Assembly: GCA_903881475.1 (NCBI GenBank)
Contig: CAIRTK010000004.1
Coordinates: 1-34,520 of the forward strand
Direction: 5' to 3'
Source: an uncultured Opitutia bacterium
GTDB taxonomy: Bacteria; Verrucomicrobiota; Verrucomicrobiia; Opitutales; Opitutaceae
Length of the DNA: 34,520 bases
Notes under the pieces: model-generated
What the model was told of the DNA's origin: nothing
Databases searched by the model: none
Seen by the model: the letters and a program-made list of their open reading frames with translations, nothing else
In this document: piece by piece, positions 18,069 through 33,907 of the stretch
Numbering within the stretch: position 1 is the first letter of the stretch
Layout of the letters: the number at the start of each line of letters is the position of its first letter
Position numbers and translations under genes: made by a program

Positions 18069-19058
18069 TCAGCGCCCGTAGCCCCCAGGATGCGCCGAGT
18101 GCCATTTCCATGCCGTGGCGACGATCGAGTCGATGTCGGGAAACTTGATGGTCCAGCCGAGTTCGCGCTGCGCCTTGGTCGAGTCGGCGTACAGGGCGGG
18201 CGGGTCGCCCGGCCGCCGCGGGCTTTCGACGATCTTGATTTTGCTTCCGGTGATCTTTTCCACGGCGCGGATCACTTCGCGGTTGGAGGTCGGCCGGCCG
18301 GTGCCGAGGTTGTAGAACAGGGCGGCTCCCGGCGCGGCGAGTTTGGGGAATACCGCGATGTGGGCCCGGCTGAGATCGTCGACGTGGACATAGTCGCGCA
18401 GGCAGGTGCCGTCGGGGGTGGGATAGTCCGTGCCAAAGATCTCGATCTGCGGCCGGCGGCCGCCGGCCGCATCGAACGCGAGGGGGATGAGGTGCGTCTC
18501 CGGCGAATGGTCCTCGCCGATGGCGCCGTCCTCCGCCGCGCCCGCGGCGTTGAAGTACCGAAAGGCGGCGAAACTCAGGCCATGCGCGCGGGCGATCGCC
18601 TTGAGCGCATTTTCCACATCCAGCTTGGTCTGGCCGTAGGGATTGATCGGCGCCTGGGGCGACTGCTCGGTGATCGGCAACGCGGCCGGCACGCCATAGG
18701 TGGCGCACGTGGAGGAGAAGACGAATTTCTTTACGCCGGCCGCCAGCATGGCGCGCAGAAGGTGCAGCGTCGCGACCCCGTTGTTGAAGTAATACTTGAG
18801 CGGATCGGTCACGGACTCGCCCACGTAACAGTAGGCGGCGAAGTGCATCACGAGCTCGATCCGCTCCGCGCGGAGCAGGCGCTCGACAGCGGCTTCGTCC
18901 CCGAGGTTGAACTCGTGCAGCGGCACCCCGGGCGCGAGCGCGGCGCGGTGGCCATAGACGAGGTTGTCCAGCACCACGGGACGGTGCCCCGCGGCGATCA
19001 GCTGGCGGACACAATGGCTGCCGATGTAACCGGCTCCCCCGACGACAAGCACGTTCAT
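18069..19058 (-). CDS. galE: UDP-glucose 4-epimerase
   Basis: GalE interconverts UDP-glucose and UDP-galactose, an extended short-chain dehydrogenase reaction with bound NAD. The 329-residue product has the NAD motif GGAGYIG at residues 7-13, the catalytic SSTCATYG segment with Y141 and K145 in YGQTK, and the C-terminal GTGRPTSNREVI and RPGDPPALYADS segments of GalE. Length is normal. It could work with the beta-galactosidase at 3044, which would release galactose, but the two are far apart in the window. It diverges from the ketosynthase gene with 59 bases between starts. Confidence 0.94.
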   Translation of the reverse strand: MNVLVVGGAGYIGSHCVRQLIAAGHRPVVLDNLVYGHRAALAPGVPLHEFNLGDEAAVERLLRAERIELVMHFAAYCYVGESVTDPLKYYFNNGVATLHLLRAMLAAGVKKFVFSSTCATYGVPAALPITEQSPQAPINPYGQTKLDVENALKAIARAHGLSFAAFRYFNAAGAAEDGAIGEDHSPETHLIPLAFDAAGGRRPQIEIFGTDYPTPDGTCLRDYVHVDDLSRAHIAVFPKLAAPGAALFYNLGTGRPTSNREVIRAVEKITGSKIKIVESPRRPGDPPALYADSTKAQRELGWTIKFPDIDSIVATAWKWHSAHPGGYGR

Positions 19059-19117: not shown

Positions 19118-20356
19118 ATGAAGCCCTCCCGCATCGTCATCACCGGAATCGGTCTGACAGCCCCCAACGGCAACTCCCTCGCCGAATTCCGGCGGAACCT
19201 GCTCAGCGGCGTGGCGGGCATCGAGCGGATGGAAATCCGTTACATGGGCCCGCAGCTTGCGGGGGTCTGTCACTACGATCCGCTGCGGCACCAGACGAAG
19301 AAGGAGGTCCGGGTCGGCACCCGCGCCGGCAGCATTAGCATCTACTGCGCCCGCGAGGCGCTGGCGGACAGCGGCGTGGCTTGGGACGCCCAGCCGAAGG
19401 ACCGCGTGGGCATCTACATCGGCTGCACCGAGCATGGCAATGTCGAGACGGAGAACGAAATCTACAACATCTCGAAGTTTAACTACGACACGAAGTTCTG
19501 GTCGCATTATCACAACCCGCGGACCGTCGCCAACAACCCGGCCGGGGAAGCTTCGCTGAACCTGGGTGTCACCGGTCCGGCCTACACGATTGGCGCCGCC
19601 TGCGCGGCCGGTAACCTGGGCCTGATCCACGCCGCGCAGATGCTGCGCCTGGGCGAGGTGGACCTGGCGATCTGCGGCGGGGTGAGCGAGAGCATCCACA
19701 CGTTCGGGATCTTTGCCGGGTTCAAGAGCCAGAATGCGCTGGCGACGCACGCGGATCCCAGCAAGGCCAGCCGGCCGTTTGACCTCGCCCGCAATGGTAT
19801 CGTCGTTTCGGAGGGTGGCTGTCTTTACACGCTGGAGCGGCTGGAGGATGCGCAGGCCCGCGGCGCTAAGATCTACGCCGAAATCGCGGGCTACCACGTG
19901 AATTCCGATGCCAGCGATTACGTGCTGCCCAATCCCGTGCGCCAGGCCGAATGCGTCCGCGCCTCCATCCGCCGGGCCGGGCTCGAGCCGCGTGACATCC
20001 ACATCGTCAACACCCATGCCACCGCCACGCCGCTGGGCGACATCCAGGAGTGCGAGGCGATCCGGGCGGTGTTTGGCGAGGGTTGCCCCGTCACCCACAT
20101 CAACAATACCAAGAGTTATATCGGCCATTGCATGGGCGCGGCCGGCGCGCTGGAGCTGGCCGGCAATCTGCCGTCCTTCGATGACCTGACGGTTCATCCC
20201 ACGATCAACGTCGACCAGCTCGATCCGGCCTGTGCGCTGCCCGGACTGGTGCTGAATCAGCCGCGCACGGTTGCGAAAGTGGATACCATCCTTAATAATT
20301 CCTTCGGCATGCTGGGGATAAATTCCACGTTGATTGTTAAGCGCTTTGCCGCCTAA
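19118..20356 (+). CDS. beta-ketoacyl-ACP synthase, FabF type
   Basis: Enzymes of this family elongate acyl-ACP by condensing it with malonyl-ACP. The 412-residue product has the full Cys-His-His triad at FabF-like positions: C162 in GAACAAGNL, H300 in NTHATATPLGD and H337 in SYIGHCMGAAG (E. coli FabF 163, 303, 340). Sequence around the site departs from housekeeping FabF (ACAAG rather than ACATG, THATATPLGD rather than HGTSTPLGD), which points to a specialised synthase. The ATG at 19118 is chosen because the product then begins MKPSRIVITGIG, the normal family start. The ACP gene follows within 20 bases. It opens a long plus-strand run of acyl-chain enzymes. Confidence 0.92.
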   Translation: MKPSRIVITGIGLTAPNGNSLAEFRRNLLSGVAGIERMEIRYMGPQLAGVCHYDPLRHQTKKEVRVGTRAGSISIYCAREALADSGVAWDAQPKDRVGIYIGCTEHGNVETENEIYNISKFNYDTKFWSHYHNPRTVANNPAGEASLNLGVTGPAYTIGAACAAGNLGLIHAAQMLRLGEVDLAICGGVSESIHTFGIFAGFKSQNALATHADPSKASRPFDLARNGIVVSEGGCLYTLERLEDAQARGAKIYAEIAGYHVNSDASDYVLPNPVRQAECVRASIRRAGLEPRDIHIVNTHATATPLGDIQECEAIRAVFGEGCPVTHINNTKSYIGHCMGAAGALELAGNLPSFDDLTVHPTINVDQLDPACALPGLVLNQPRTVAKVDTILNNSFGMLGINSTLIVKRFAA

Positions 20357-20375
20357 GTCCCTCGCTTCAGCCCAT

Positions 20376-20639
20376 ATGACCAAAGACGAATGCAAGAAGG
20401 TGGTGATCGATATTATCGCTGATATCGCGCCCGATGAGGACTTGAGCGCGCTCAAGCCCGACGTGCGCCTGCGCGATCAGCTCCAGCTCGATTCGATGGA
20501 CTTCCTCGACATCGTGATGGAGCTGCGGAAACGCCACAGCATCGAGGTCCCGGAGGCGGACTACATCCAGCTGGCCTCGCTCGACAGCTGCGCGGATTAC
20601 CTGACGCCCAAGTTCAACGCGCTCAGCGCCAAGAGCTGA
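20376..20639 (+). CDS. acyl carrier protein
   Basis: The 87-residue acidic protein carries the growing acyl chain as a thioester on phosphopantetheine. The attachment site is S40 in QLDSMDFLDIV, the usual DSL motif reading DSM. Predicted helices match the four-helix ACP fold. It is somewhat longer at the C-terminus (NALSAKS) than the roughly 78-residue housekeeping ACP and diverges from it, so it is probably a dedicated carrier for the genes around it. It starts 19 bases after the ketosynthase stop and is followed by a strong terminator. Confidence 0.93.
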   Translation: MTKDECKKVVIDIIADIAPDEDLSALKPDVRLRDQLQLDSMDFLDIVMELRKRHSIEVPEADYIQLASLDSCADYLTPKFNALSAKS

Positions 20640-20662
20640 GCGCCGGGTTTGACCTTTCGACG

Positions 20663-20694
20663 GGGCCGGGAAGCATTTCCCGGCCCTTTGTTTT
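20663..20694 (+). terminator. intrinsic terminator after the acyl carrier protein gene
   Basis: A perfect 10-bp stem (GGGCCGGGAA / TTCCCGGCCC) with a GCAT loop is followed by TTTGTTTT. It lies 23 bases after the ACP stop and 16 bases before the next start. It should end or attenuate the ketosynthase-ACP transcript and lower expression of the downstream genes unless they have their own promoter. Confidence 0.85.
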
Positions 20695-20709
20695 GCCCGT
20701 GTCACCCGC

Positions 20710-22146
20710 ATGAACACCCGCTCGCATTACGATGTCGCCATCATCGGGGCCGGCATGTCCGGCCTCGCGGCCGGCATCCGGCTGGCACACTTCGGCAAGC
20801 GCGTGTGCATCTTCGAGCGCCACAACGCGGTCGGCGGCCTCAACAGTTTCTACAGTCTGGGCGGCCGCAAGTTCGACGTGGGGTTGCATGCGATGACCAA
20901 CTACGTGCGGCCCGGCATCAAGGGCACGCCGCTCGGCAAGCTGCTACGGCAGCTGCGCATCGACCGCGATGAATTCGCGCTGTGCGAGCAGAAGCAGTCG
21001 CGCATCGCCTTCGGGCCCCGCGGCGAGACTTCACTCCGCTTCACCAACGACTTCGCCGTGCTGGAGGGCGAAGTCGCCGCCCGCTTTCCGGCGCAGACCG
21101 ACGGGTTTCGCCGCCTGACGGCCGCGGTGCGAAGCTATGACGACGTTTCGCTGGATGCCGCGCCGGTCTCGGCGCGCCAAATCGTCCGTCAACACCTCAC
21201 CGATCCTTTGCTGGAGGACATGCTGTTCTGTCCGCTGATGTACTATGGGAGTGCCACCGAGCACGACATGGAATTCGGCCAGTTCGTGATCATGTTCAAA
21301 GCGCTTTTCCTCGAGGGTTTCGCCCGGCCGTTCGAAGGTGTCCGTGTCATCCTGCGCGTGCTCCTGGAGAAGTATCGCGCGGCGGGTGGCGAGCGCCGGA
21401 TGAAATGCGGCGTCCGGCAGATCGTCGCCCGGGACGGCCGGGCCGCGGCCCTGGTGCTCGACAGCGGCGAGGAGATTTCCGCGGACAATGTCATCTCCTC
21501 CATCGGTGCGCCGGAAACCGCCCGGCTGATTCAACCGGCGGCCCCCGGACCCCAGGCATCAGCCTTGCCCGGACGGCTGTCCTTCGTGGAGACCATCACG
21601 ATCCTCGACCGGCAGCCGGCCGCACTCGGGTGGGGGAGTGACACAATCGTCTTTTTCAATGACTCCGCGCGGTTCGACTACGCCTGCCCGGCCGACCAGG
21701 TTGATCCGCGGAGCGGGGTGATCTGCATCCCCAACAACTTCGATTACGGTCCGGAACTCCAACTGGCCGAGGGAATCTTCCGCTGTACGTGTCTGGCCCG
21801 CTACGATGGCTGGGCGCATTTGCCGGAGGAAGCCTATCAGGCGGACAAACGGCGCTGGTATCAGGCGCTGCAAGAAAGTGCGCAGCGCTTCCTGCCCGCC
21901 CTGCCGGAGGCGGGCACGCTGGCCCGGGCCACGGTGGCCACCGACATGTTCACGCCGCGCACCATCACCAAATTCACGGGCCATCTCGGCGGCGCGATTT
22001 ACGGCGCGGCCGAGAAAAACCGCCAGGGCCGGACCGGGCTCGTCAACCTTTATCTCTGCGGGACCGACCAGGGATTCCTCGGCATTGTAGGCGCGATGCT
22101 CAGCGGAATTTCGATGGCCAACTATCATATCCTGCAAAAAAGCTGA
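20710..22146 (+). CDS. FAD-dependent oxidoreductase, CrtI/phytoene-desaturase-like
   Basis: The 478-residue product has the dinucleotide-binding motif GAGMSG at residues 13-18 with the ribose-binding Glu in IFERHNAVGGLNS. The C-terminal FAD-contact segment is LYLCGTDQGFLGIVGAMLSGISMANY. This is the architecture of phytoene desaturases, carotenoid isomerases and retinol saturases, which add or remove hydrogens on hydrophobic chains. No phytoene synthase or other carotenoid gene is present, and it sits between ACP and FAS-like genes, so an acyl-chain substrate is a reasonable inference. No membrane segment other than the Rossmann start is seen. Confidence 0.85.
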   Translation: MNTRSHYDVAIIGAGMSGLAAGIRLAHFGKRVCIFERHNAVGGLNSFYSLGGRKFDVGLHAMTNYVRPGIKGTPLGKLLRQLRIDRDEFALCEQKQSRIAFGPRGETSLRFTNDFAVLEGEVAARFPAQTDGFRRLTAAVRSYDDVSLDAAPVSARQIVRQHLTDPLLEDMLFCPLMYYGSATEHDMEFGQFVIMFKALFLEGFARPFEGVRVILRVLLEKYRAAGGERRMKCGVRQIVARDGRAAALVLDSGEEISADNVISSIGAPETARLIQPAAPGPQASALPGRLSFVETITILDRQPAALGWGSDTIVFFNDSARFDYACPADQVDPRSGVICIPNNFDYGPELQLAEGIFRCTCLARYDGWAHLPEEAYQADKRRWYQALQESAQRFLPALPEAGTLARATVATDMFTPRTITKFTGHLGGAIYGAAEKNRQGRTGLVNLYLCGTDQGFLGIVGAMLSGISMANYHILQKS

Positions 22147-22198
22147 TCCGCGCGGCACGAAGCCCGTTGTCACCTGTCGCATCGGAAACCCCAACCCC

Positions 22199-23416
22199 AT
22201 GAAATCACCCCTGTCATTGATTCGGTCACTGGCCTTTTCCCTGAGCCTGACGGTGCTGCTGCCCGGTTCGACCCGGGCCCAGGCGCCGGCCACCGCGGCT
22301 GATGCCGACGTCCAGCTGACCCAGCCGCAACTCGATCAGCTGCTCGGTCCCATCGCCCTCTATCCTGATGCCTTGGTTGCGCTCATTCTGCCCGCCTCGA
22401 CGGTCCCCACGGACATCGTGCTCGCCGCGCGTTATCTGAACGCGGCGGGCTCCGCCGCGGAGATCGACAGCCAGGCCTGGAACGACAGTGTGAAGGCATT
22501 GGCGCGGTATCCCGAGGTCATCAAGTGGATGGACGATAACCTTGTATGGACGCAGCAGATGGGCACGGCGTTTCTAGCGCAGCAGCCCGAGGTGATGGCC
22601 GCGGTCCAGCGGCTGCGCGCGCGGGCCCGGGCGACGGGAGCCTTGGCCAATACGCCGCAGCAGCAGTTCATCGAGGACGACGGAGCGATCGAAATCGTGC
22701 CGACCCAGCCCAACGTCATTTACGTGCCACGCTATGATCCCGACGTCGTTTACGTGGCCGATCCGGATTATTATGGCGGGCCCTTCCTGGCCTTTGGATA
22801 CGGATATCCGACAGGATACTGGCTGAGCTATGAGTTCGACTGGCGTCGCCACAGCATCTGGGTGGGGGACCGCCACCGCGGCTGGTATCGTCCCGGTTCA
22901 CCCGGCCGGCCGAATTTTCCAAGCGATCCCGCGTGGCATCCCTGGAGCCCGCCGGTCAACCGCCCGCCCTCGCCGCCGCACGGCATCCACCGGCCGTGGC
23001 CGGACATCGTGAGCCCCAGGCCCTTCCCGGGCACCCCGCCTCCGCCGCACCGTTCGCGCCCTGATGACCGCAACCGCTCAAGCCGCCCGGACACCGCGGC
23101 CCGCCCACCGGCCACGAGTCAGCCGCCGGCCGCAACGGTCACCGGCTCAGCCCGGAATCCCTCCGGATGGAACGCCGCGGGTTCCGCGTCGCGAACCTCG
23201 GCCACACCCGCGCCGGCACCCACCTCAGTCTATGCGCCCGTCGCGTCGCGGGCAACAACCCAGCCGGCAGTGACGCCGAATCGAACGCCGCCAGTGAAAC
23301 CGGCACCTAGCCCCCGCATTGCCGTGCCTGCGCCGTCGGGATCATCAACGCCGGCAGCGGTCCTGGCGCCAGCGACTCCGCCCGCGACGACTTCAAGGGA
23401 CAACGCTCCGCGTTAA
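22199..23416 (+). CDS. DUF3300 envelope protein
   Basis: The 405-residue product has a signal peptide ([20 protein letters not shown]). The next region, about residues 40-195, has the DUF3300 hallmarks: [42 protein letters not shown] and [18 protein letters not shown]. An aromatic, Gly-rich stretch ([25 protein letters not shown]) leads into a Pro/Ser/Thr/Ala-rich tail of about 170 residues that is probably disordered. DUF3300 proteins are exported and of unknown role. It lies between two FAD oxidoreductase genes, 52 bases after the first, and is followed by a palindromic repeat. A link to the acyl-chain genes is possible but not shown. Confidence 0.88.
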
Positions 23417-23436
23417 GGATCGTTCGTATTCCGTCA

Positions 23437-23504
23437 GTAGCAGCCGACATAAGGAGGCTGGTTGGACATGTAACAGCGCCCAGCCTCCTTACGTCGGCTG
23501 CTAC
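23437..23504. repeat. GTAG-bounded inverted repeat, REPIN-like
   Basis: Two 25-base arms, 23437-23461 and 23480-23504, are inverted complements with one A-C mismatch (23449 against 23492), around an 18-base loop. Each arm starts at its outer end with GTAG and contains a smaller CAGCC...GGCTG palindrome. GTAG followed by a palindrome is the signature of REP elements, and two in inverted order make a REPIN. It lies between the DUF3300 stop and the second oxidoreductase. The transcript would form a long stem that could act as a terminator or protect the RNA end; there is no T tract. Confidence 0.7.
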
Positions 23505-23585
23505 GGGGCGCGGCAGAAAGAGGGAGCCGGCCGGGTACAAAACCCCTTGCCCTCGTTGCGGCACCGCTTTCACTCTGCTCCTTCC

Positions 23586-25049
23586 ATGGCTTATGACTGG
23601 CTTAAAGGAGTGGCCGACGAGTACGACGTAATCGTGATCGGCAGCGGTCTGGGCGGATTGACCGGCGCCAACGTGCTGGCCAAGGCCGGTCACAAGGTGC
23701 TGCTCCTGGAGCATCACTACCAGTTGGGCGGGCTGGCGACGTGGTTCACGCGCAAGGGCGGGCATATTTTCGACATCTCGCTGCATGGCTTTCCGGTCGG
23801 CATGATCAAATCGTGCCGCAAGTACTGGACGAAGGAGATCGCCAACTCGATCGTGCAGCTGAAGGACATCCGCTTCATCAATCCCCAGATGGATGTCTGG
23901 ACGACCTTCACGCGGGAGGATTATACGCGGGTGCTGGTCGAGCAATTCCAGCTCGATCCCGCCCATGTGGAGAAATTCTACGACTACCTGCGGCGAATGA
24001 ATTTCTACGACAACAACCCCGAGACGACGGGCGAGATGCTCGAGCGGTTTTTCCCGGGCCGGGATGATGTGAAGCGCCTGCTGATGGAGCCGATCGCCTA
24101 CGCCAACGGCTCGACGCTCGACGATCCCGCGATTACCTACGGCATCGTCTTCTCCAATTTCATGGGCTCCGGGGTCTATACGTTTCGCGGCGGTTCGGAC
24201 CTGCTGATCGAGAAGATGCTCGCCGAGCTGAAGCAGAACGGCGTGGAGGTGCGAAAAAAGGTGCTGGTCGACCGGATCCTCGTGGAGGAGCGCGAGGGCC
24301 GGAAGGTGGCGGCCGGCATCGTCGCCGGCAACGGCCGGGTTATCCGGGCGAAGGCCGTGCTGTCCAACGCCAACATCAAGAACACGATCTTCCGGCTCGC
24401 CGGGGAGCAGAATTTTCCCGCGGACTATGTCGAGGCGGCCCGGGCTGTGCGGATCAACGCCAGCTCCTGCCAGGTTTACCTTGGCATCCGGAAGGGGGAA
24501 ACAATCCCGCACATCGGCGACCTCGTTTTCACCTCGGCCAACCCACGGTTCAGCAGCGAGGAACTCACCGACTTTCACACCACGAGCCGCACCTTCTCGG
24601 TTTACTATCCCGACACCCGTCCCGGCTCCGACCGCTACACGGTCGTGGTTTCCCTCAACGGCCGCTATGCCGACTGGCAGCGGCTGGACGAGGCGGACTA
24701 CCAGAGGGAAAAGGCCCGGCTGGTGGAGGAATCGATTGGGGCGCTCGAACGGTATATCCCCGGGGTACGCGCCAAGATCGACTGGTCCGAAGCCGCCACT
24801 CCGCGCACGATCGAGCGTTATACCACGCATCAGGGCGGCACCTCCTTCGGCACCAAATTCGAGGGCCTCAAGGTCTCGATGGAGCTGTCCGAAAACCTCC
24901 CGGGGCTCTATCATGCGGGCTCCGTGGGCATCATCATGTCGGGCTGGCTCGGCACGATCAATTACGGGGTGATCACCGCCAACAAGATCGACCAGTTCCT
25001 TTTCAGCCAGCGCCAGCCTACTGCTACGCCAACCCCGGTCTCGGCATGA
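23586..25049 (+). CDS. FAD-dependent oxidoreductase, CrtI/retinol-saturase-like
   Basis: The 487-residue product has the FAD motif GSGLGG at residues 19-24, with [16 protein letters not shown] following, and a C-terminal [22 protein letters not shown] segment. It is in the same superfamily as the protein encoded at 20710 but clearly different in sequence, so this is not a recent duplication. The ATG at 23586 follows a 169-base gap containing the palindromic repeat; upstream in-frame codons fall inside the DUF3300 gene and repeat and are rejected. The stop overlaps the dehydratase start (ATGA), so the two are translationally coupled. That ties it to acyl-ACP chemistry; saturation or desaturation of a chain is inferred, not shown. 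Confidence 0.87.
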
Positions 25050-25498
25050 GCGCGAGTCCGATCGTTCTGGGCCTGATTCCCCACCGGCCGCCATTCCTGT
25101 TCGTGGACGAAATCGTTTCCGAGACGGCCGATGGCCTGGTCGCCCGGCGGACCTTCCGGACCGACGAGGATTTCTATCAGGGCCATTACCCGGGCGCACC
25201 GATCACACCCGGAGTGCTGCTGTGCGAGGCCGTTTTTCAGACAGGGGCGCTGTACATGGCCGGGACGATGGCGGGGCAGGGCAGCCGCGCGGGCGTGCCG
25301 CTGCTGGCGAAGATCAGCGACGTCCGGTTTAGGAATCCCGTTTATCCCGGCGAGACCATCCTCATCGAGGTGAAGCGGAAGGAAGTCCTCGGCGGTTTCA
25401 CGATGATGAGCGGCAGCATCAAGAGCGGTGAAAAACGGGTGCTTACCGTGGAGTTTGCCGTGGCCTGGAAAACGCCGGAGGGAGCACCCGCCGCATGA
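25046..25498 (+). CDS. 3-hydroxyacyl-ACP dehydratase, FabZ type
   Basis: FabZ-type hot-dog-fold enzymes remove water from 3-hydroxyacyl-ACP. The 150-residue product has [13 protein letters not shown] near the start, then [20 protein letters not shown] with the catalytic pair H47 and E61, 14 apart as in FabZ (54 and 68 in E. coli). The IPHRPPFL segment resembles FabZ more than FabA. It overlaps the preceding oxidoreductase by 4 bases and the next gene by 4 bases, so it sits mid-operon. Confidence 0.92.
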
Positions 25499-26307
25499 GC
25501 GATTTTCTCCAGCTGACCGGCAAGACCTTCCTTGTCTTCGGCGTCGCCAACCGCAAGAGCGTCGCATGGTTCGTCGCCGAATCGCTCGAGGAGCAGGGCG
25601 CCCGCGTGCTCTACAGCGTCCGCTCTGAGACGCGAAAGCAGTCCCTGGCTGCGCAGCTCGCGGGCAAGGCCGTGTTTGTCTGCGATGTTGAGCAGCCGGG
25701 GGCGGTGGACCGGCTCGCCGGGGAAGTTGCCGCCGCCGGCCACGCGGCGCTGCACGGAATTGTCCACTCGATCGCGTTCGCCAACTACAGCGAGGGCTTC
25801 AAGCCGTTCCACGAGACGACGCGCGCCGATTTTCTCCAGGCCACGGGTGTATCGGCCTTCTCGCTGGTCGAGGTGGCGCGGGCGTTCAAGCCGCTGCTGG
25901 TGAAGCAGGCATCGGTCGTGACGATCGGCATCTCCTCGCTGCAGGTCACGCCCGACAACTATGGCTACATGGGCCCGATCAAGGCCGCCCTCGAGTCGTG
26001 CGTGCGGTTCCTGGCGAAGTCGTTCAGCGCCGACACCGCGGTGCGCTTCAATGCGGTCGGGGCCGGGCCGCTCAAGACCAGCGCCTCGGCCGGTATCCCG
26101 GGCTATCTGGAGAGTTACCTTTACGCCGAGAAACTCACCTTTCGGAAAAAGAACCTCGAGACGCAGGAGATCGCCAACACCGTGCTCTTTCTGCTGAGCG
26201 AGCGCAGCAGCGGCGTTAATGGCACGACCCTCGTGGTCGATGCCGGGCTGGGTTCGAATTATTTCGACCAGGAAATCATCCGCCTCGCCATGCGGCCGGT
26301 GAAATGA
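25495..26307 (+). CDS. FabI-like enoyl-ACP reductase (short-chain dehydrogenase)
   Basis: The 270-residue product follows E. coli FabI closely in layout: the cofactor loop FGVANRKSVAW near the N-terminus, HSIAFANY after it, and Y156 and K163 in NYGYMGPIKAALE, the same numbers as in FabI. This suggests NAD(P)H-dependent reduction of an enoyl-ACP double bond. The position of the first FabI active-site Tyr (Y146) holds Ile here (GISSLQVTPDNY), so activity or substrate may differ; InhA also lacks Tyr there (Phe). No separate ketoreductase is in the cluster. It overlaps the dehydratase start (ATGA), and the OleA gene begins 7 bases after its stop. Confidence 0.85.
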   Translation: MSDFLQLTGKTFLVFGVANRKSVAWFVAESLEEQGARVLYSVRSETRKQSLAAQLAGKAVFVCDVEQPGAVDRLAGEVAAAGHAALHGIVHSIAFANYSEGFKPFHETTRADFLQATGVSAFSLVEVARAFKPLLVKQASVVTIGISSLQVTPDNYGYMGPIKAALESCVRFLAKSFSADTAVRFNAVGAGPLKTSASAGIPGYLESYLYAEKLTFRKKNLETQEIANTVLFLLSERSSGVNGTTLVVDAGLGSNYFDQEIIRLAMRPVK

Positions 26308-26314
26308 GGCCCGC

Positions 26315-27349
26315 ATGAAGTTCGAGAACGTCTGCATCGAAGCCCTCGCCGTCGCGTTGCCGGAGGAGAGCTGGAGCTCGGTCCAGATCGAGGAGCGCCT
26401 GCGCCCGCTCTACGAGCGGCTGAAGCTTCCGGCCGGCCGCCTCGAGCTCATGACCGGCATCCGCGAGCGCCGGATGTGGCCGGCGGGCACGCGTCCGTCT
26501 GATGCCAGCGCCGCCGCCGGCAAGGCTGTGCTGGCCAAATCGAGACTGAAGGCGGAGCAGGTGGAGCTGTTCATTCACGCCGCTGTCAGCCGCGACATGC
26601 TGGAGCCGGCCACGGCATCGTTCGCGCATCGCAAGATCGGACTGCCGGCCACGGCGCAGATTTTCGATGTCTCCAACGCCTGCCTCGGTTTCCTGAACTC
26701 CCTGACGGTCGCCGCCGGAATGATCGAGTCCGGCCAGATCCGCTGCGCACTTGTGGTCGCCGGGGAAAACGGCCGGCCGCTCGTCGAGCAAACCCTGGCG
26801 ACGCTGCTCGAGCGGCCACTGAACCGGAATGAGATCAAACCCTATTTTGCCAATCTCACGATCGGGTCGGGCGCCGTGGCGGCGGTCGTCTGCCACCGCT
26901 CCCTGGTGGACGGCCATGCGCACCGTCTCCTTGGCGGCGTCGCCCGCGCCGCGACGCAGCACAGCGAACTCTGCCAGGGTGACACCCATGGGACCGAGGC
27001 GCTCGCCATGCAGACGGATTCGGAGCAATTGCTGGTCGCGGGGGTCGCGCTCGCACAGGAGACGTGGCGTGAGTTTACCGGTGCCGCCGGATGGAGCACG
27101 GACTCGTTTGACCGCTTCATCTGCCATCAGGTCGGCAGCACCCATCGCCGGAAACTCTATGAGACCCTCGGCCTGGATCTGGCCAAGGATTTCTCGACCT
27201 TTGAAACCCTCGGCAACACCGGTTCCGTGGCACTGCCCGCCACGCTGTCCGCGGCGATCGACGCGGGCGCGGTAAGAGAGGGGAGCCGCGTCGGTCTGCT
27301 CGGCATTGGCAGCGGGCTCAACTGCCTGATGCTCGCGCTCGAATGGTGA
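26315..27349 (+). CDS. oleA: OleA-type thiolase (acyl-acyl Claisen condensation)
   Basis: OleA joins two long acyl-CoA chains head to head into a 2-alkyl-3-keto acid, the first step of long-chain olefin synthesis. The 344-residue thiolase-fold product has C123 in SNACLGFLNS, H271 in ICHQVGSTH and N301 in ETLGNTGS. It also has E97 in LEPATAS, exactly 26 residues before the Cys, as for E117 and C143 of Xanthomonas OleA; FabH lacks this Glu. The segment GENGRPLVEQTLATLLE also fits OleA. A GAGG lies 6 bases before the ATG. The stop overlaps the next start by 7 bases. FabH is the alternative but is less likely. Confidence 0.88.
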   Translation: MKFENVCIEALAVALPEESWSSVQIEERLRPLYERLKLPAGRLELMTGIRERRMWPAGTRPSDASAAAGKAVLAKSRLKAEQVELFIHAAVSRDMLEPATASFAHRKIGLPATAQIFDVSNACLGFLNSLTVAAGMIESGQIRCALVVAGENGRPLVEQTLATLLERPLNRNEIKPYFANLTIGSGAVAAVVCHRSLVDGHAHRLLGGVARAATQHSELCQGDTHGTEALAMQTDSEQLLVAGVALAQETWREFTGAAGWSTDSFDRFICHQVGSTHRRKLYETLGLDLAKDFSTFETLGNTGSVALPATLSAAIDAGAVREGSRVGLLGIGSGLNCLMLALEW

Positions 27350-28233
27350 CCCCGGGGCAGATTCCCGACTGGCTGGCGCGGCTCTACCCGTTCACGCCGC
27401 AGTCATTTGTCACGGCGCAGGGCGCCCGCCTGAGCTATCTGGATGAAGGGCCGCGGTCCGATGAGGCCGTGCTGATGCTGCACGGCAACCCGACCTGGTC
27501 GTTTTATTACCGGCAGCTCGTGCAGGAGCTGTCGCCGACGGTGCGCTGCATCGCGCCGGATCACATCGGCATGGGGCTGTCGGAAAAGCCCGGGGACTAT
27601 CACTACACGCTGGCGACCCGGATCGCGGATATCGAAGGACTGGTGGCGTCGCTCGGACTCAAGCGCGTGCATCTGGTGGTCCACGATTGGGGCGGAGCGA
27701 TCGGGTTCGGCTTTGCGGCGCGCCATCCGGAATTGATCGGCCGGCTCGTGATTCTCAATACGGCCGCCTTCGCGTCGGAGCGGATTCCAGCGAGGATCGC
27801 AGGGTGCAAAATTCCACTTATCGGCCCACTGCTGGTTCGGGGTTTCAATGGCTTCGCGTGGCCCGCCACCTGGATGGCGATGCACCGGCGCAGACTCACG
27901 CCGGAGGAAAAGCGCGGCTATCTCTTTCCGTATGAGTCCTGGGGCGCCCGGGTCGCGGTCAGCGCGTTTGTGCGCGATATCCCGCTCAGCCCGGCGCATC
28001 CGAGCTGGACCACGCTGAAGGCGGTCGAGGCCGGCCTCGTCCAGTTCAAGGACCGGTCAACGCTGATCGTATGGGGCGGCCGGGACTTTTGCTTCAACGC
28101 TACGTTCCTCGCACGCTGGCAGGAGCTGTTTCCCGCCGCCCGCTGCGAACGGATCGCCGACGCCGGACACTATGTGCTCGAGGATGCGGCGACGGAAGTG
28201 CTCCCACTTATTTGCGGGCATCTGCTGAAGTAG
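27343..28233 (+). CDS. oleB: OleB-type alpha/beta hydrolase (beta-lactone decarboxylase / haloalkane-dehalogenase fold)
   Basis: OleB decarboxylates a beta-lactone to the final cis-olefin. The 296-residue product has the haloalkane-dehalogenase fold: HGNPTWSFYYRQL, then nucleophile D115 in VVHDWGGAIGFG and H276 in DAGHYVLEDA. Those positions are close to those I recall for the OleB nucleophile and His. Because the gene overlaps oleA by 7 bases, OleB is preferred over a dehalogenase. It is not fused to OleC, as some OleBC proteins are, and no oleC or oleD follows. Its TAG stop lies inside a palindromic repeat. Confidence 0.82.
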   Translation: MVTPGQIPDWLARLYPFTPQSFVTAQGARLSYLDEGPRSDEAVLMLHGNPTWSFYYRQLVQELSPTVRCIAPDHIGMGLSEKPGDYHYTLATRIADIEGLVASLGLKRVHLVVHDWGGAIGFGFAARHPELIGRLVILNTAAFASERIPARIAGCKIPLIGPLLVRGFNGFAWPATWMAMHRRRLTPEEKRGYLFPYESWGARVAVSAFVRDIPLSPAHPSWTTLKAVEAGLVQFKDRSTLIVWGGRDFCFNATFLARWQELFPAARCERIADAGHYVLEDAATEVLPLICGHLLK

Positions 28234-28258: not shown

Positions 28259-29788
28259 TCACCGCCGGTACAGCTCCGCCAACTCGCGCAAATAGGCGGA
28301 CGCGCCATCGCTCAGCGCGCGCAGTTGTTCGGCCCGGAAACGCCACGACCAGTTTCCCTGTGGCACGCCCGGACTGTTGAAGCGGGCGGCGGAACCGAGC
28401 CCAAGCAAGTCCTGGAGCGGAATGATCGCAAGGGCGCAGACCGACGCATAGGCGGAACGCAGAAAATCCCAGTGCACGTCCTGGCCATTCACGCGCAGGT
28501 AGCGGCGCACATGGTCGCGGGTCTTTTCGTCCGCGGTCGCGTACCAGCCGAGGGTCGTGTCGTTGTCGTGCGTGCCGGGGTAGACGACGCAGTTGGCGCG
28601 CTGATTGTGAGGCAGGTAATAATTGTCCGAAGTTCCGCCGAAAGCGAACTGCAGCACGGCCATTCCGGGCAGACCGGTGGCTTCGCGCAACGCAATGACC
28701 TCGGGGGTGAGCGTGCCCAAATCCTCGGCGATCAATTTGGCTTCGGGCAGGGCGGCACGAATGGCGCGGAAAAAATCCAAGCCCGGCCCCGGGACCCAGT
28801 GGCCGGGCCGGGCCGTCGCCGAACCCGCGGGAATCGACCAGTAGGCCTCGAAACCCCGGAAGTGATCGATGCGCACGATATCAAAGAGCGCAAAGTTGGC
28901 CCGGAGCCGGGCCAGCCACCACGCGTAGCCATCGGCTGCATGGACCGGCCAGTCGTAGAGGGGATTGCCCCAAAGCTGGCCGTCAGCCGAGAAGTAGTCG
29001 GGCGGACAACCCGCCACGGCCACCGGCCGGGACGTCTTCGGGTCGAGTTGGAAGAGCCGGAGATTGGCCCAGACATCGGCGCTGTCGAGCGCGGCAAAGA
29101 TGGGAGCGTCGCCGATGATGCCAACCCCCAGCGAAGTGGCCCTGGCGCGAAGCTGTGTCCATTGGCCGAAGAACAGGTACTGGATGTATTCGAAGGCCTC
29201 GATGCGTTCTGCGAGCTGGCGCGGAAGCGTCGTTTTGCGGGCGCTAGCCGGGGTGCGGGCGGTAACGGGCCATTCCCACCAAGGCTGGCCGGCAAAGTGA
29301 CCCTTCAAGGCGGAGAACAGGGCGTAATCCGGCAGCCAGACGGATTGCTGGCGGCGGAAGGCCTCGAAATCGCCATACGGCAGAAGCGTTCGGCCGCTCC
29401 GGACAAACTGGGCATGGGCTGCGAACAGGACAGGCCACTTGAGCGCGTAGAGCGCGCCGAAATCGACGCGGTCGGCATTGAGCGCCTGCAGGGGTTTGAC
29501 GTCGTCGGCGGTCAGCAGTCCGGCGCGCACCAACGCCGCGACATCGATCAGATAAGGATTTCCGGCAAAGGCCGAGAAACACTGGTAGGGCGAATCACCG
29601 TAACCCGTCGGACCGAGCGGACAGATCTGCCAGTGCTTGAAGCCCGCGGCCGAAAGGAACTCCAGAAAGGCGACGGCGTTTTCATCCAGTGATCCGATGC
29701 CATAGGAACCGGGCAGGGCGGTCGGGTGCAACAGAACGCCGGCATGCCGTTCGCCATCAATGAGCCAGCCATGGCGAGGCTCACTCAT
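28259..29788 (-). CDS. malQ: 4-alpha-glucanotransferase (amylomaltase, GH77)
   Basis: MalQ transfers glucan segments between alpha-1,4-glucans in maltodextrin and glycogen metabolism. The 509-residue product has the GH77 catalytic set: nucleophile D308 in VRIDHFRGF, acid/base E355 in IAEDLG and D408 in GTHDNDTT, with spacing like that of Thermus amylomaltase. It also shows GSYGIGSLDENA and CPLGPTGYGDSPYQCFS, which form the substrate entry region. The ATG at 29788 is chosen because AAGGTG precedes it by 4 bases, one of the few ribosome-binding candidates in the window; a GTG at 29794 is possible. It converges on the Ole genes. Confidence 0.95.
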   Translation of the reverse strand: MSEPRHGWLIDGERHAGVLLHPTALPGSYGIGSLDENAVAFLEFLSAAGFKHWQICPLGPTGYGDSPYQCFSAFAGNPYLIDVAALVRAGLLTADDVKPLQALNADRVDFGALYALKWPVLFAAHAQFVRSGRTLLPYGDFEAFRRQQSVWLPDYALFSALKGHFAGQPWWEWPVTARTPASARKTTLPRQLAERIEAFEYIQYLFFGQWTQLRARATSLGVGIIGDAPIFAALDSADVWANLRLFQLDPKTSRPVAVAGCPPDYFSADGQLWGNPLYDWPVHAADGYAWWLARLRANFALFDIVRIDHFRGFEAYWSIPAGSATARPGHWVPGPGLDFFRAIRAALPEAKLIAEDLGTLTPEVIALREATGLPGMAVLQFAFGGTSDNYYLPHNQRANCVVYPGTHDNDTTLGWYATADEKTRDHVRRYLRVNGQDVHWDFLRSAYASVCALAIIPLQDLLGLGSAARFNSPGVPQGNWSWRFRAEQLRALSDGASAYLRELAELYRR

Positions 29789-29794
29789 GCGCAC

Positions 29795-32950: not shown

Positions 32951-33862
32951 TCAGGCGGTCAGGTCGGAAAATTCGGCAAAGCTCCTCACGGCCCAGGTCT
33001 TCTCGGTCCGCCGCGCCAGCCCGGCCAGCACCCCGCCCGGCCCGAGTTCCCAGAACTCCACCGCGCCTGCGGCCGCGGCACTGCGCATGCAATCCTCCCA
33101 GAGGACGGAGGAAACGACCTGCTTCACCAGCGCGGCCTTCAGGTCGGCCGGCGCGGAGACAGTCCGCCCGGTGGTATTCGTGAACACCGTGAATTGCGGG
33201 GCCGCAAACGGGATCTGCTCCAGATAAGCCGCAAACGCGGCGCGAGCCGGTTCCATCAGGCGCGAGTGATAGGCGCCGGCGACATTGAGTGGGATGACCT
33301 TCTTGATGCCCCGCTCCCTGGCGGCCGTGACGGCCGTGTCGATTTTTGATTTCTCGCCGGAAACGATGATCTGCCCCGGGGCATTGAAATTGGCGGCCTC
33401 GAGGTCGAACTCGCGGCACAGCTCGTAAACCTTGGCGCGTTCCTCGCCGATGATGGCCGCCATGCCGCCGGTTGTCTGCTCGCACGCCTGCTGCATCAGC
33501 CGGCCGCGCTCGGCGACCACCCGGAGGCCCGTCGCAAAGTCAAACACGCCGGCGGCGCAATACGCCGTCACCTCGCCCAGGCTCAGGCCAAGCGCATACT
33601 GTGGCTCGCCAGCCGGCAGGCCGCCCCGTTCCCGCAGGGCGGCGAGCAGCGCCAGGCCATGCACGAACAGCGCAGGCTGGCAGACCTTGGTCTGGGTCAG
33701 CTCGGCGTCGGGCCCTTCGAAGGAGATTTTGGACAAATCCCAGCCAAGTACGGTATTCGCCTCGGCATACAGCGCGCGGGCTGCTGCTGACTGCTCGAAT
33801 AGCGAGCGTCCCATGCCAATCTTTTGGGCTCCCTGACCGGAAAAAATAAGTGCCAATGCCAT
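32951..33862 (-). CDS. fabD: malonyl-CoA:ACP transacylase
   Basis: FabD loads malonyl groups onto ACP for fatty acid synthesis. The 303-residue product starts MALALIFSGQGAQKIGMG, has the active-site Ser S94 in GLSLGE (the family consensus is GHSLGE, so the His is Leu here) and the His H199 in AYHSRLM. The acyl-binding QPALF segment is present. Length fits. It could feed both housekeeping FAS and the acyl-chain cluster at 19118-28233. The ATG at 33862 is chosen because the family starts at the FSGQG region. It leads the fabD-lepA-lepB run. Confidence 0.93.
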   Translation of the reverse strand: MALALIFSGQGAQKIGMGRSLFEQSAAARALYAEANTVLGWDLSKISFEGPDAELTQTKVCQPALFVHGLALLAALRERGGLPAGEPQYALGLSLGEVTAYCAAGVFDFATGLRVVAERGRLMQQACEQTTGGMAAIIGEERAKVYELCREFDLEAANFNAPGQIIVSGEKSKIDTAVTAARERGIKKVIPLNVAGAYHSRLMEPARAAFAAYLEQIPFAAPQFTVFTNTTGRTVSAPADLKAALVKQVVSSVLWEDCMRSAAAAGAVEFWELGPGGVLAGLARRTEKTWAVRSFAEFSDLTA

Positions 33863-33907
33863 GGTTGAACCGGCTAGAACATCCCCCGCCGCCGGAAAAA
33901 CCAAGCC

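Follow-up and report, generated by a model that had tools for sequence, protein, structure and literature searches.

We analyzed a 34,520-nucleotide stretch of DNA (the window), which is the whole of contig C4 in the genome of an uncultured Opitutia bacterium from the family Opitutaceae (3.21 Mb in 83 contigs, 99.9% complete). A gene cluster in this window has a core of eight genes, which encode FabF, an acyl carrier protein (ACP), the CrtI-like flavoproteins CrtI1 and CrtI2, FabZ, FabI, OleA, and OleB. These eight genes probably form one unit that builds a special acyl chain, most likely polyunsaturated and of the C16 type, for the head-to-head condensing enzyme OleA. The reading of the cluster as a single pathway is well supported: the gene order is conserved, the genes are retained and lost together across genomes, CrtI1 and CrtI2 are distinct from the carotenoid enzymes that we compared them with, and the genome contains no Pfa synthase above the cut-off and no phytoene synthase.

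Nine plus-strand genes fill positions 19118-28233. Families were assigned with Pfam and NCBIfam profile searches, and the genes are as follows.

19118-20356, +: FabF-type ketosynthase (P0001; PF00109/PF02801), with a role in elongation
20376-20639, +: dedicated acyl carrier protein (P0002; PF00550, E 1.4e-8; S40 in DSMD)
20710-22146, +: CrtI1, FAD enzyme with the carotenoid-desaturase fold (P0003; PF01593/PF13450), proposed acyl-chain desaturase or isomerase
22199-23416, +: DUF3300 protein (P0004; PF11737, E 4.2e-48), accessory, between the two CrtI-like genes
23586-25049, +: CrtI2, second FAD oxidoreductase (P0005; PF01593), proposed acyl-chain desaturase or isomerase
25046-25498, +: FabZ-type dehydratase (P0006; PF07977, E 1.6e-20; H47/E61; FabZ relatives in the PDB)
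25495-26307, +: FabI-type enoyl-ACP reductase (P0007; PF13561, E 7.2e-58; Y156/K163)
26315-27349, +: OleA, head-to-head condensing thiolase (P0008; NF006720; PDB 3row)
27343-28233, +: OleB-like alpha/beta hydrolase (P0009; PF00561; D115/H276), proposed beta-lactone decarboxylase

From the coordinates, CrtI2 and FabZ overlap by 4 bases, as do FabZ and FabI, and OleA and OleB overlap by 7 bases. The nine genes, the overlaps, and the catalytic motifs that the initial annotation of this DNA had described in this region are all present.

We examined the gene order in two sets of loci: 40 CrtI2 loci, selected from the 129 genomes that carry CrtI2 in a set of 141 (the genome of the window plus relatives in its genus, family, and order), and the best 80 of 271 matched loci from named genomes, which partly overlap the first set. 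The denominators include loci that are cut by contig ends. All eight core genes are present in the same order at 12 of the 40 CrtI2 loci and at 30 of the 80 named-genome loci. Another 10 of the 40 and 19 of the 80 have CrtI2-FabZ-FabI-OleA-OleB alone, while FabF-ACP-CrtI1-CrtI2 alone is found at 1 and 7 loci, respectively. Neither block is present at 14 of the 40 (with at least 7 kb read on each side) and at 11 of the 80, and the other loci are cut or partial (3/40 and 13/80). The arrangement of the core genes exceeds chance. The initial annotation had made conservation of the neighborhood a test of its single-pathway proposal, and the neighborhood is indeed kept in part of the order. It had also counted all nine genes as the cluster, and so took in the DUF3300 gene. 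That gene occurs at just 3/40 and 10/80 loci; because it is so seldom present, we consider it to be a local insert that lies outside the conserved unit, and we rejected it as a member of the pathway.

Parts of this arrangement are found elsewhere. At 15 loci that we fetched from the order because OleA lies away from CrtI2, OleA is adjoined by FabI in 10 cases and by OleB in 10. Among 15 OleA loci from outside the order, 5 have OleB, and 2, both from family f59, have FabF-ACP-CrtI1 beside OleA. In that family, CrtI1-ACP-FabF is beside OleA in three of the four genomes read (G306, G321, and G422) and was not seen there in G216: the third locus (L250), which came from the CrtI1 set, holds FabF, ACP, and OleA, and the fourth (L248) holds ACP alone. 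At another CrtI1 locus outside the order (L252), OleA-OleB lies within 3 kb. A Pfam scan of 10 proteins encoded beside CrtI1, CrtI2, or OleA outside the order identified no fatty-acid synthesis (FAS) gene. At a lone CrtI2 locus outside the order (L168:11557-13416, in G214), the adjoining gene is of the AMP-binding, acyl-CoA ligase type and its product is only 22% identical to OleC; a weak match of a similar sort lies near CrtI2 at L179.

Across the 141 genomes, CrtI2 was found in 129, OleA in 129, and OleC in 129 (E ≤ 1e-80; 125 of these are over the curated cut-off). Both CrtI2 and OleA are present in 126 genomes, CrtI2 alone in 3, OleA alone in 3, and neither in 9. CrtI2, OleA, and OleC are all absent from seven genomes that belong to five families (G093, G095, G096, G104, G122, G123, and G137), and in two of these families (f5 and f8), other members keep all three genes. 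We also searched 20 chosen genomes for the cluster's FabI (E ≤ 1e-15), which was present in 12 of the 13 with CrtI2 and in none of the 7 that lack CrtI2, OleA, and OleC. For a broader view, we used an even draw of 387 genomes from across the phylum, in which CrtI2 was found in 107, OleA in 110, and CrtI1 in 112 (this last count takes in three proteins of only 33-34% identity, from genus g68 and its like). CrtI1 and CrtI2 are nearly always present in one copy per genome. CrtI2 and OleA co-occur in 101 of the 387 genomes, with 6 having CrtI2 only, 9 having OleA only, and 271 having neither; the corresponding numbers for CrtI1 and OleA are 104, 8 (CrtI1 only), 6 (OleA only), and 269. All three genes are present in 99 of the 119 genomes that have any of them. 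Outside the order alone, both CrtI2 and OleA are present in 41 genomes, CrtI2 only in 5, OleA only in 8, and neither in 270. Thus the genes are coupled across the phylum even where they are not linked. These counts ignore how the genomes are related, so we give more weight to two other observations: the genes have repeatedly been lost together, and genes that do not adjoin each other are coupled all the same. The joint absence from seven genomes, spread over five families, is a stronger argument than Fisher tests on the counts.

The two flavoproteins do not appear to be carotenoid enzymes. Both contain a GxGxxG motif for flavin adenine dinucleotide (FAD), and the top NCBIfam match of both is carotenoid isomerase (TIGR02730, cut-off 587), at 112 bits for CrtI2 and 58 bits for CrtI1. 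Among the best 25 NCBIfam rows, both are far under the cut-off of each carotenoid family. In a structure model of CrtI1 (mean predicted local distance difference test, or pLDDT, of 79), the best PDB folds are 4rep and 4dgk, which is the carotenoid desaturase fold; this match carries no information about the substrate. The model of CrtI2 was too poor to use (mean pLDDT 61). In a phylogenetic tree, the 18 CrtI1 rows fall into one group and the 34 CrtI2 rows into another, both on long stems and with a Shimodaira-Hasegawa-like approximate likelihood ratio test (SH-aLRT) support of 100. Six CrtI proteins of the carotenoid type, of which three come from the same order, group together apart from both. 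This was a quick tree of 64 of the 92 collected rows (CrtI2 rows were thinned), with six CrtI2 matches from a plasmid collection as outgroups and without anammox sequences; several of its reference rows drew long-branch warnings. A Pfam search of the genome found no phytoene/squalene synthase (SQS_PSY, PF00494), and SQS_PSY was found in just 23 of the 141 relatives (18 of the 129 with CrtI2 and 5 of the 12 without it). On these grounds we rejected a carotenoid role for CrtI1 and CrtI2. The initial annotation had held that its reading would fail if the oxidoreductases grouped with carotenoid enzymes that are accompanied by phytoene synthase; instead, they lie apart from the carotenoid enzymes compared and occur independently of phytoene synthase. 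When two anammox homologs of the CrtI type were expressed in E. coli, no lycopene was formed (PMC4790861). Overall, CrtI1 and CrtI2 share their fold and FAD motif with the carotenoid flavoproteins CrtI, CrtD, and CrtISO, but they are distinct clades, they fall under every listed carotenoid cut-off, and their genome lacks phytoene synthase.

Some more distant relatives of these proteins were also seen. In the plasmid collection, CrtI2 matches 37 records, of which 36 are less than 60% identical and one is in the 60-80% range (the 25 records listed, which do not include that one, are at most 26% identical), and CrtI1 matches 10 records at up to 27% identity. One of the CrtI2-like proteins, from a Streptomyces plasmid (L234:4800-7665; 26% identical), is encoded directly after a ketosynthase-like gene, with P450 and adenylation genes nearby. 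In two genomes of genus g68 (G126, L258:6685-9700, and G108, L259:6271-9300), a CrtI1 that is about 31-34% identical to the window's follows a conserved FabF-ACP pair; judging by sequence, it is as if CrtI1 had been replaced there by a distant relative. The CrtI1 of G140 resembles these divergent proteins.

The Ole part of the pathway appears to be complete in this genome. OleA scores 453.9 bits against NF006720 (cut-off 285) and aligns end to end (E 1.5e-68) with PDB entry 3row, which is labeled 3-oxoacyl-[ACP] synthase III and which we take to be OleA of Xanthomonas campestris. It keeps the Cys, His, Asn, and Glu of the family (E97/C123/H271/N301 in a motif scan). For the OleB-like protein, haloalkane-dehalogenase models score best, below their cut-offs, and there is no OleB-named model among the matches listed; its family, its D115/H276 motifs, and its position after OleA agree with OleB, and it follows OleA in many relatives. 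OleC is encoded on contig C18 (NF006754, 630 bits, cut-off 478). That NF006754 is the OleC family is supported by the models that rank second and third. Both are for olefin beta-lactone synthetases, and their scores of 522 and 424 bits fall below narrow cut-offs. Directly downstream of OleC is an OleD-like reductase, whose best family is NF042422 (OleD), at 375 bits (cut-off 580). With OleC and OleD elsewhere in the genome, the Ole pathway would therefore be whole. The initial annotation had reported OleA and OleB and had not mentioned OleC and OleD. As in the oleABCD clusters of Xanthomonas and Micrococcales, OleA, OleC, and OleD are present, here with an OleB-like protein; unlike in those clusters, the ole genes are split (AB from CD), and the proposed acyl-supply genes adjoin the A-B pair. 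At the OleC loci of five relatives, OleD adjoins OleC in three (L203-L205), lies within 4 kb in L206, and was not detected in L188. In another genome (G234, locus L264), CrtI2 lies within 7 kb of OleC-OleD. The plasmid collection contains 195 records that match OleA, all at under 60% identity.

FabF scores 306 bits against TIGR03150, which is under the cut-off of 494, so we consider it to be a divergent FabF. A motif scan found its C162/H300/H337. We take the roles of the motif residues in FabF, ACP, FabZ, FabI, OleA, and OleB to be those generally assigned to these positions. Besides the cluster's FabF, there are four further ketosynthase-like places in the genome. The ACP is 74-98% identical to the ACPs in the clusters of relatives. 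The best FabI model gives 177 bits for the reductase, under its cut-off, and this protein is the only homolog in the genome at E ≤ 1e-15. PDB searches with FabZ, ACP, and OleB did not distinguish housekeeping enzymes from dedicated ones. The cluster is flanked by a galE-like epimerase gene (18069-19058, minus strand) and a 4-alpha-glucanotransferase gene (28259-29794, minus strand).

Another potential supplier of chains for OleA is the Pfa synthase. In the window's genome, PfaA gives partial matches only, of up to 125 bits against a cut-off of 1010. With no PfaA or polyketide synthase (PKS) megasynthase over the cut-off, we rejected supply by Pfa in this genome. Among the 141 relatives, PfaA is over the cut-off in one (G038, from the same family), and three others (G053, G072, and G110) have strong matches below it. 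Contig C4 of G038 (L240/L241) carries this match along with a PfaC-type gene, behind which comes, on one strand, a second OleA-OleB-OleC-OleD set. On other contigs, G038 has OleA, OleC, and CrtI2 of the usual kind (the CrtI2 match is partial and located at the end of a contig), so this genome would appear to contain two suppliers for one pathway. Just four of the 110 OleA-positive genomes from across the phylum lack both CrtI1 and CrtI2 (G181, G249, G425, and G456). In two of these (G181 and G425 of family f52; L218 and L219), a PfaC-type gene is directly upstream of OleA, and its product has two ketosynthase domains, an acyltransferase, and three FabA-like stretches. No ketosynthase was found near OleA within 20 kb in G249 or on the short (8 kb) contig of G456. 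In G038, G181, and G425, OleA thus adjoins another supplier of polyunsaturated chains. The neighbor of OleA can thus be a Pfa-type synthase in one genome and the FAS/CrtI set in another. In the known Pfa plus OleABCD system of Shewanella and Photobacterium, which makes hentriacontanonaene (C31:9), OleA likewise has a dedicated supplier that makes an unusual chain on its own ACP, but here the supplier would be a discrete set of type II FAS (FASII) enzymes with two CrtI-like flavoproteins.

We infer the following route. FabF would elongate the chain on the dedicated ACP, FabZ would dehydrate it, and FabI would reduce it at chosen rounds, with malonyl transfer, ketoreduction, and priming being supplied by housekeeping FAS. 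About 5 kb downstream of the cluster, adjoining lepA, is a FabD-type malonyl-transferase gene (32951-33904, minus strand), which is possibly the source of malonyl groups for this chain. The flavoproteins would work without oxygen, either dehydrogenating the chain or catalyzing a CrtISO-like isomerization, and would in this way introduce double bonds or preserve existing ones. Two chemistries may be open to them, namely stepwise dehydrogenation of a chain or isomerization of enoyl-ACP in the course of elongation. We consider isomerization because the carotenoid isomerase model is the top match of both proteins and because the dehydratase has a FabZ-type glutamate (E61), which presumably functions as in FabZ. 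OleA would then join two such chains head to head, taking the acyl-ACPs directly. This would fit the gene content, since Pfam identifies no acyl-CoA ligase among the nine cluster genes and no hydrolase beyond the OleB-like protein. Finally, OleD would reduce the product, OleC would form a beta-lactone (both are encoded on another contig), and OleB would decarboxylate the beta-lactone to a long internal olefin, plausibly of the C31:9 type. A more tentative proposal, to which we give just short of an even chance, is that CrtI1 and CrtI2 desaturate or isomerize acyl-ACP without needing oxygen and that, together with a private FabF, ACP, FabZ, and FabI, they provide a non-polyketide route to polyunsaturated chains dedicated to OleA.

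Several observations weigh against this pathway, or against parts of it. Besides the discordant genomes in the phylum-wide counts for either flavoprotein and OleA, there is the list of those that have CrtI1 and/or CrtI2 without OleA (G234, G267, G297, G343, G377, G390, G410, G416, and G444). Of these, G267 (a single contig, 93% complete) has CrtI1; G297 and G416 (family f77) have both types; and G234 (99% complete, 6 contigs) has CrtI1, CrtI2, OleC, and OleD, with no OleA at E ≤ 1e-40. G249 has OleA with neither flavoprotein and no ketosynthase in 20 kb. Within the order, G114 keeps CrtI2 and OleA and has no FabI (E ≤ 1e-15) and no OleC. Outside the order, no other core gene is present at 20 of 20 CrtI2 loci and at 13 of 16 CrtI1 loci. 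The Fisher tests on co-occurrence are descriptive, as their p-values ignore shared ancestry. FabI may serve housekeeping synthesis as well. The C31:9-like polyene is inferred by analogy with Shewanella and Desulfotalea psychrophila, so this assignment comes from other organisms. Also, the major fatty acids given for Lacunisphaera (Opitutaceae) in the available text include no polyunsaturated acid (PMC5303756). A chain that is used for hydrocarbon alone need not show up among the major fatty acids.

Some of these observations would fit other explanations. OleA might take ordinary branched or mono-unsaturated housekeeping chains, with the clustered FAS and CrtI-like enzymes tuning their length or saturation, which would give an olefin mixture like that of Xanthomonas. 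This is unlikely, and it is the alternative that we rank highest. Xanthomonas OleA does draw on chains from housekeeping FAS (PMC6463001), and two of three Lacunisphaera species have iso-branched major fatty acids (PMC5303756). However, a dedicated ACP, FabF, FabZ, and FabI and two conserved flavoproteins would then be superfluous, and FabI is absent from all of the searched genomes that lack CrtI2, OleA, and OleC. Ranking just behind it, and also improbable, is a scenario in which the FAS/CrtI genes serve other lipids, by making a special acyl chain for membranes or storage, and the neighboring OleA and OleB tap the same ACP pool; hydrocarbon would then not be the main destination of the unusual chain. 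The genomes with CrtI1 but no OleA (8/387) or CrtI2 but no OleA (6/387), including the two f77 genomes with both types, and the mostly dispersed genes outside the order would be expected under this scenario. It accounts poorly for the seven genomes, drawn from five families, that have jointly lost CrtI2, OleA, OleC, and FabI and whose kin in f5 and f8 keep CrtI2, OleA, and OleC, or for FabI staying at OleA in 10 of the 15 loci of the order with CrtI2 elsewhere.

We consider it very unlikely that CrtI1 and CrtI2 are carotenoid or other isoprenoid enzymes that lie by chance in a fatty-acid and Ole neighborhood. Their fold and their family likeness to CrtI, CrtD, and CrtISO would be explained, but SQS_PSY is missing from the genome, it is proportionally more frequent among the relatives without CrtI2 (5/12 versus 18/129), and the carotenoid-type CrtI proteins of the same order are separate in the tree. 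The least probable alternative, in our view, is that the product is a cyclised, ladderane-like chain. There is a general likeness to the anammox FASII clusters with phytoene-desaturase-like genes (PMC2649909). However, the anammox loci hold several radical SAM genes, and Pfam finds none among the nine genes of this cluster; furthermore, D. psychrophila has such clusters and no ladderanes (PMC2649909). The initial annotation is thus supported in part: as to the single pathway, the conserved neighborhood, and the non-carotenoid oxidoreductases, and not as to DUF3300 or the cyclised product, for which we found no evidence.

The work of Sukovich et al. 2010 reportedly tested strain TAV2 and found C31:9 to be the commonest product. 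Verrucomicrobia are among the olefin producers of that study according to PMC7158056. oleABCD has been reported in Opitutae genomes in a freshwater genome study (PMC5673642) and oleC in Opitutaceae (PMC10176705); the available text of neither mentions the FAS/CrtI genes. Rattray et al. 2009 described clusters in Kuenenia and D. psychrophila that combine FASII genes with phytoene-dehydrogenase-like ones; D. psychrophila produces C31:8 and C31:9 without Pfa. They proposed that such clusters form an anaerobic pathway for polyunsaturated fatty acids that yields C31:9 precursors, and suggested stepwise dehydrogenation of the chain by the phytoene-dehydrogenase-like genes (PMC2649909). The clusters of D. 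psychrophila and Kuenenia stuttgartiensis are similar to the one here, by their description rather than by sequence, in having FASII genes, fabF paralogs, two or three CrtI-like genes (DP1860/DP2405/DP2406 and kuste3336/kuste3607, respectively), and no Pfa. They differ in that they have several radical SAM genes, FabI is in unrelated clusters, and no joining to oleA or oleB is described in the available text (PMC2649909). In the Pfa system, OleA takes 16:4 from the Pfa ACP to give 31:9, and the direct use of acyl-ACP was argued from co-expression with OleA (PMC6463001); Pfa-like clusters had also been linked to olefins (PMC3098273). Given the Pfa supply of OleA (PMC6463001) and the 2009 proposal for FASII/CrtI-like genes (PMC2649909), the initial annotation went too far in calling the combination undescribed, although the joining to oleAB does appear to be unreported. 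A literature search that lacked most subscription journals found no publication that links CrtI-like genes to OleA. What is new here, within that same literature, is that FAS/CrtI genes are physically joined to oleAB and that the coupling extends across the phylum; the idea of a dedicated supplier other than Pfa for the synthesis of Ole hydrocarbons was partly anticipated in 2009 (PMC2649909).

The source of the polyunsaturated halves of C31:9 in bacteria without Pfa has been a question since 2009 (PMC2649909), and we found no later answer in the literature searched. Two flavoprotein families that are coupled with OleA across hundreds of genomes now provide a short list of candidate genes. If our reading is correct, an oxygen-independent route with CrtI-like enzymes would explain C31:9-type hydrocarbons in bacteria that lack Pfa. 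In evolutionary terms, the FAS/CrtI set would then correspond to the Pfa synthase, and it would occur both within the window's order and among families that belong to other classes of the phylum. And if the CrtI-like enzymes do act on acyl-ACP, they would add to the known types of chemistry by which double bonds are handled in fatty chains. This would also be relevant to the ladderane pathway, the search for which has stalled and whose gene sets include enzymes of a similar kind.

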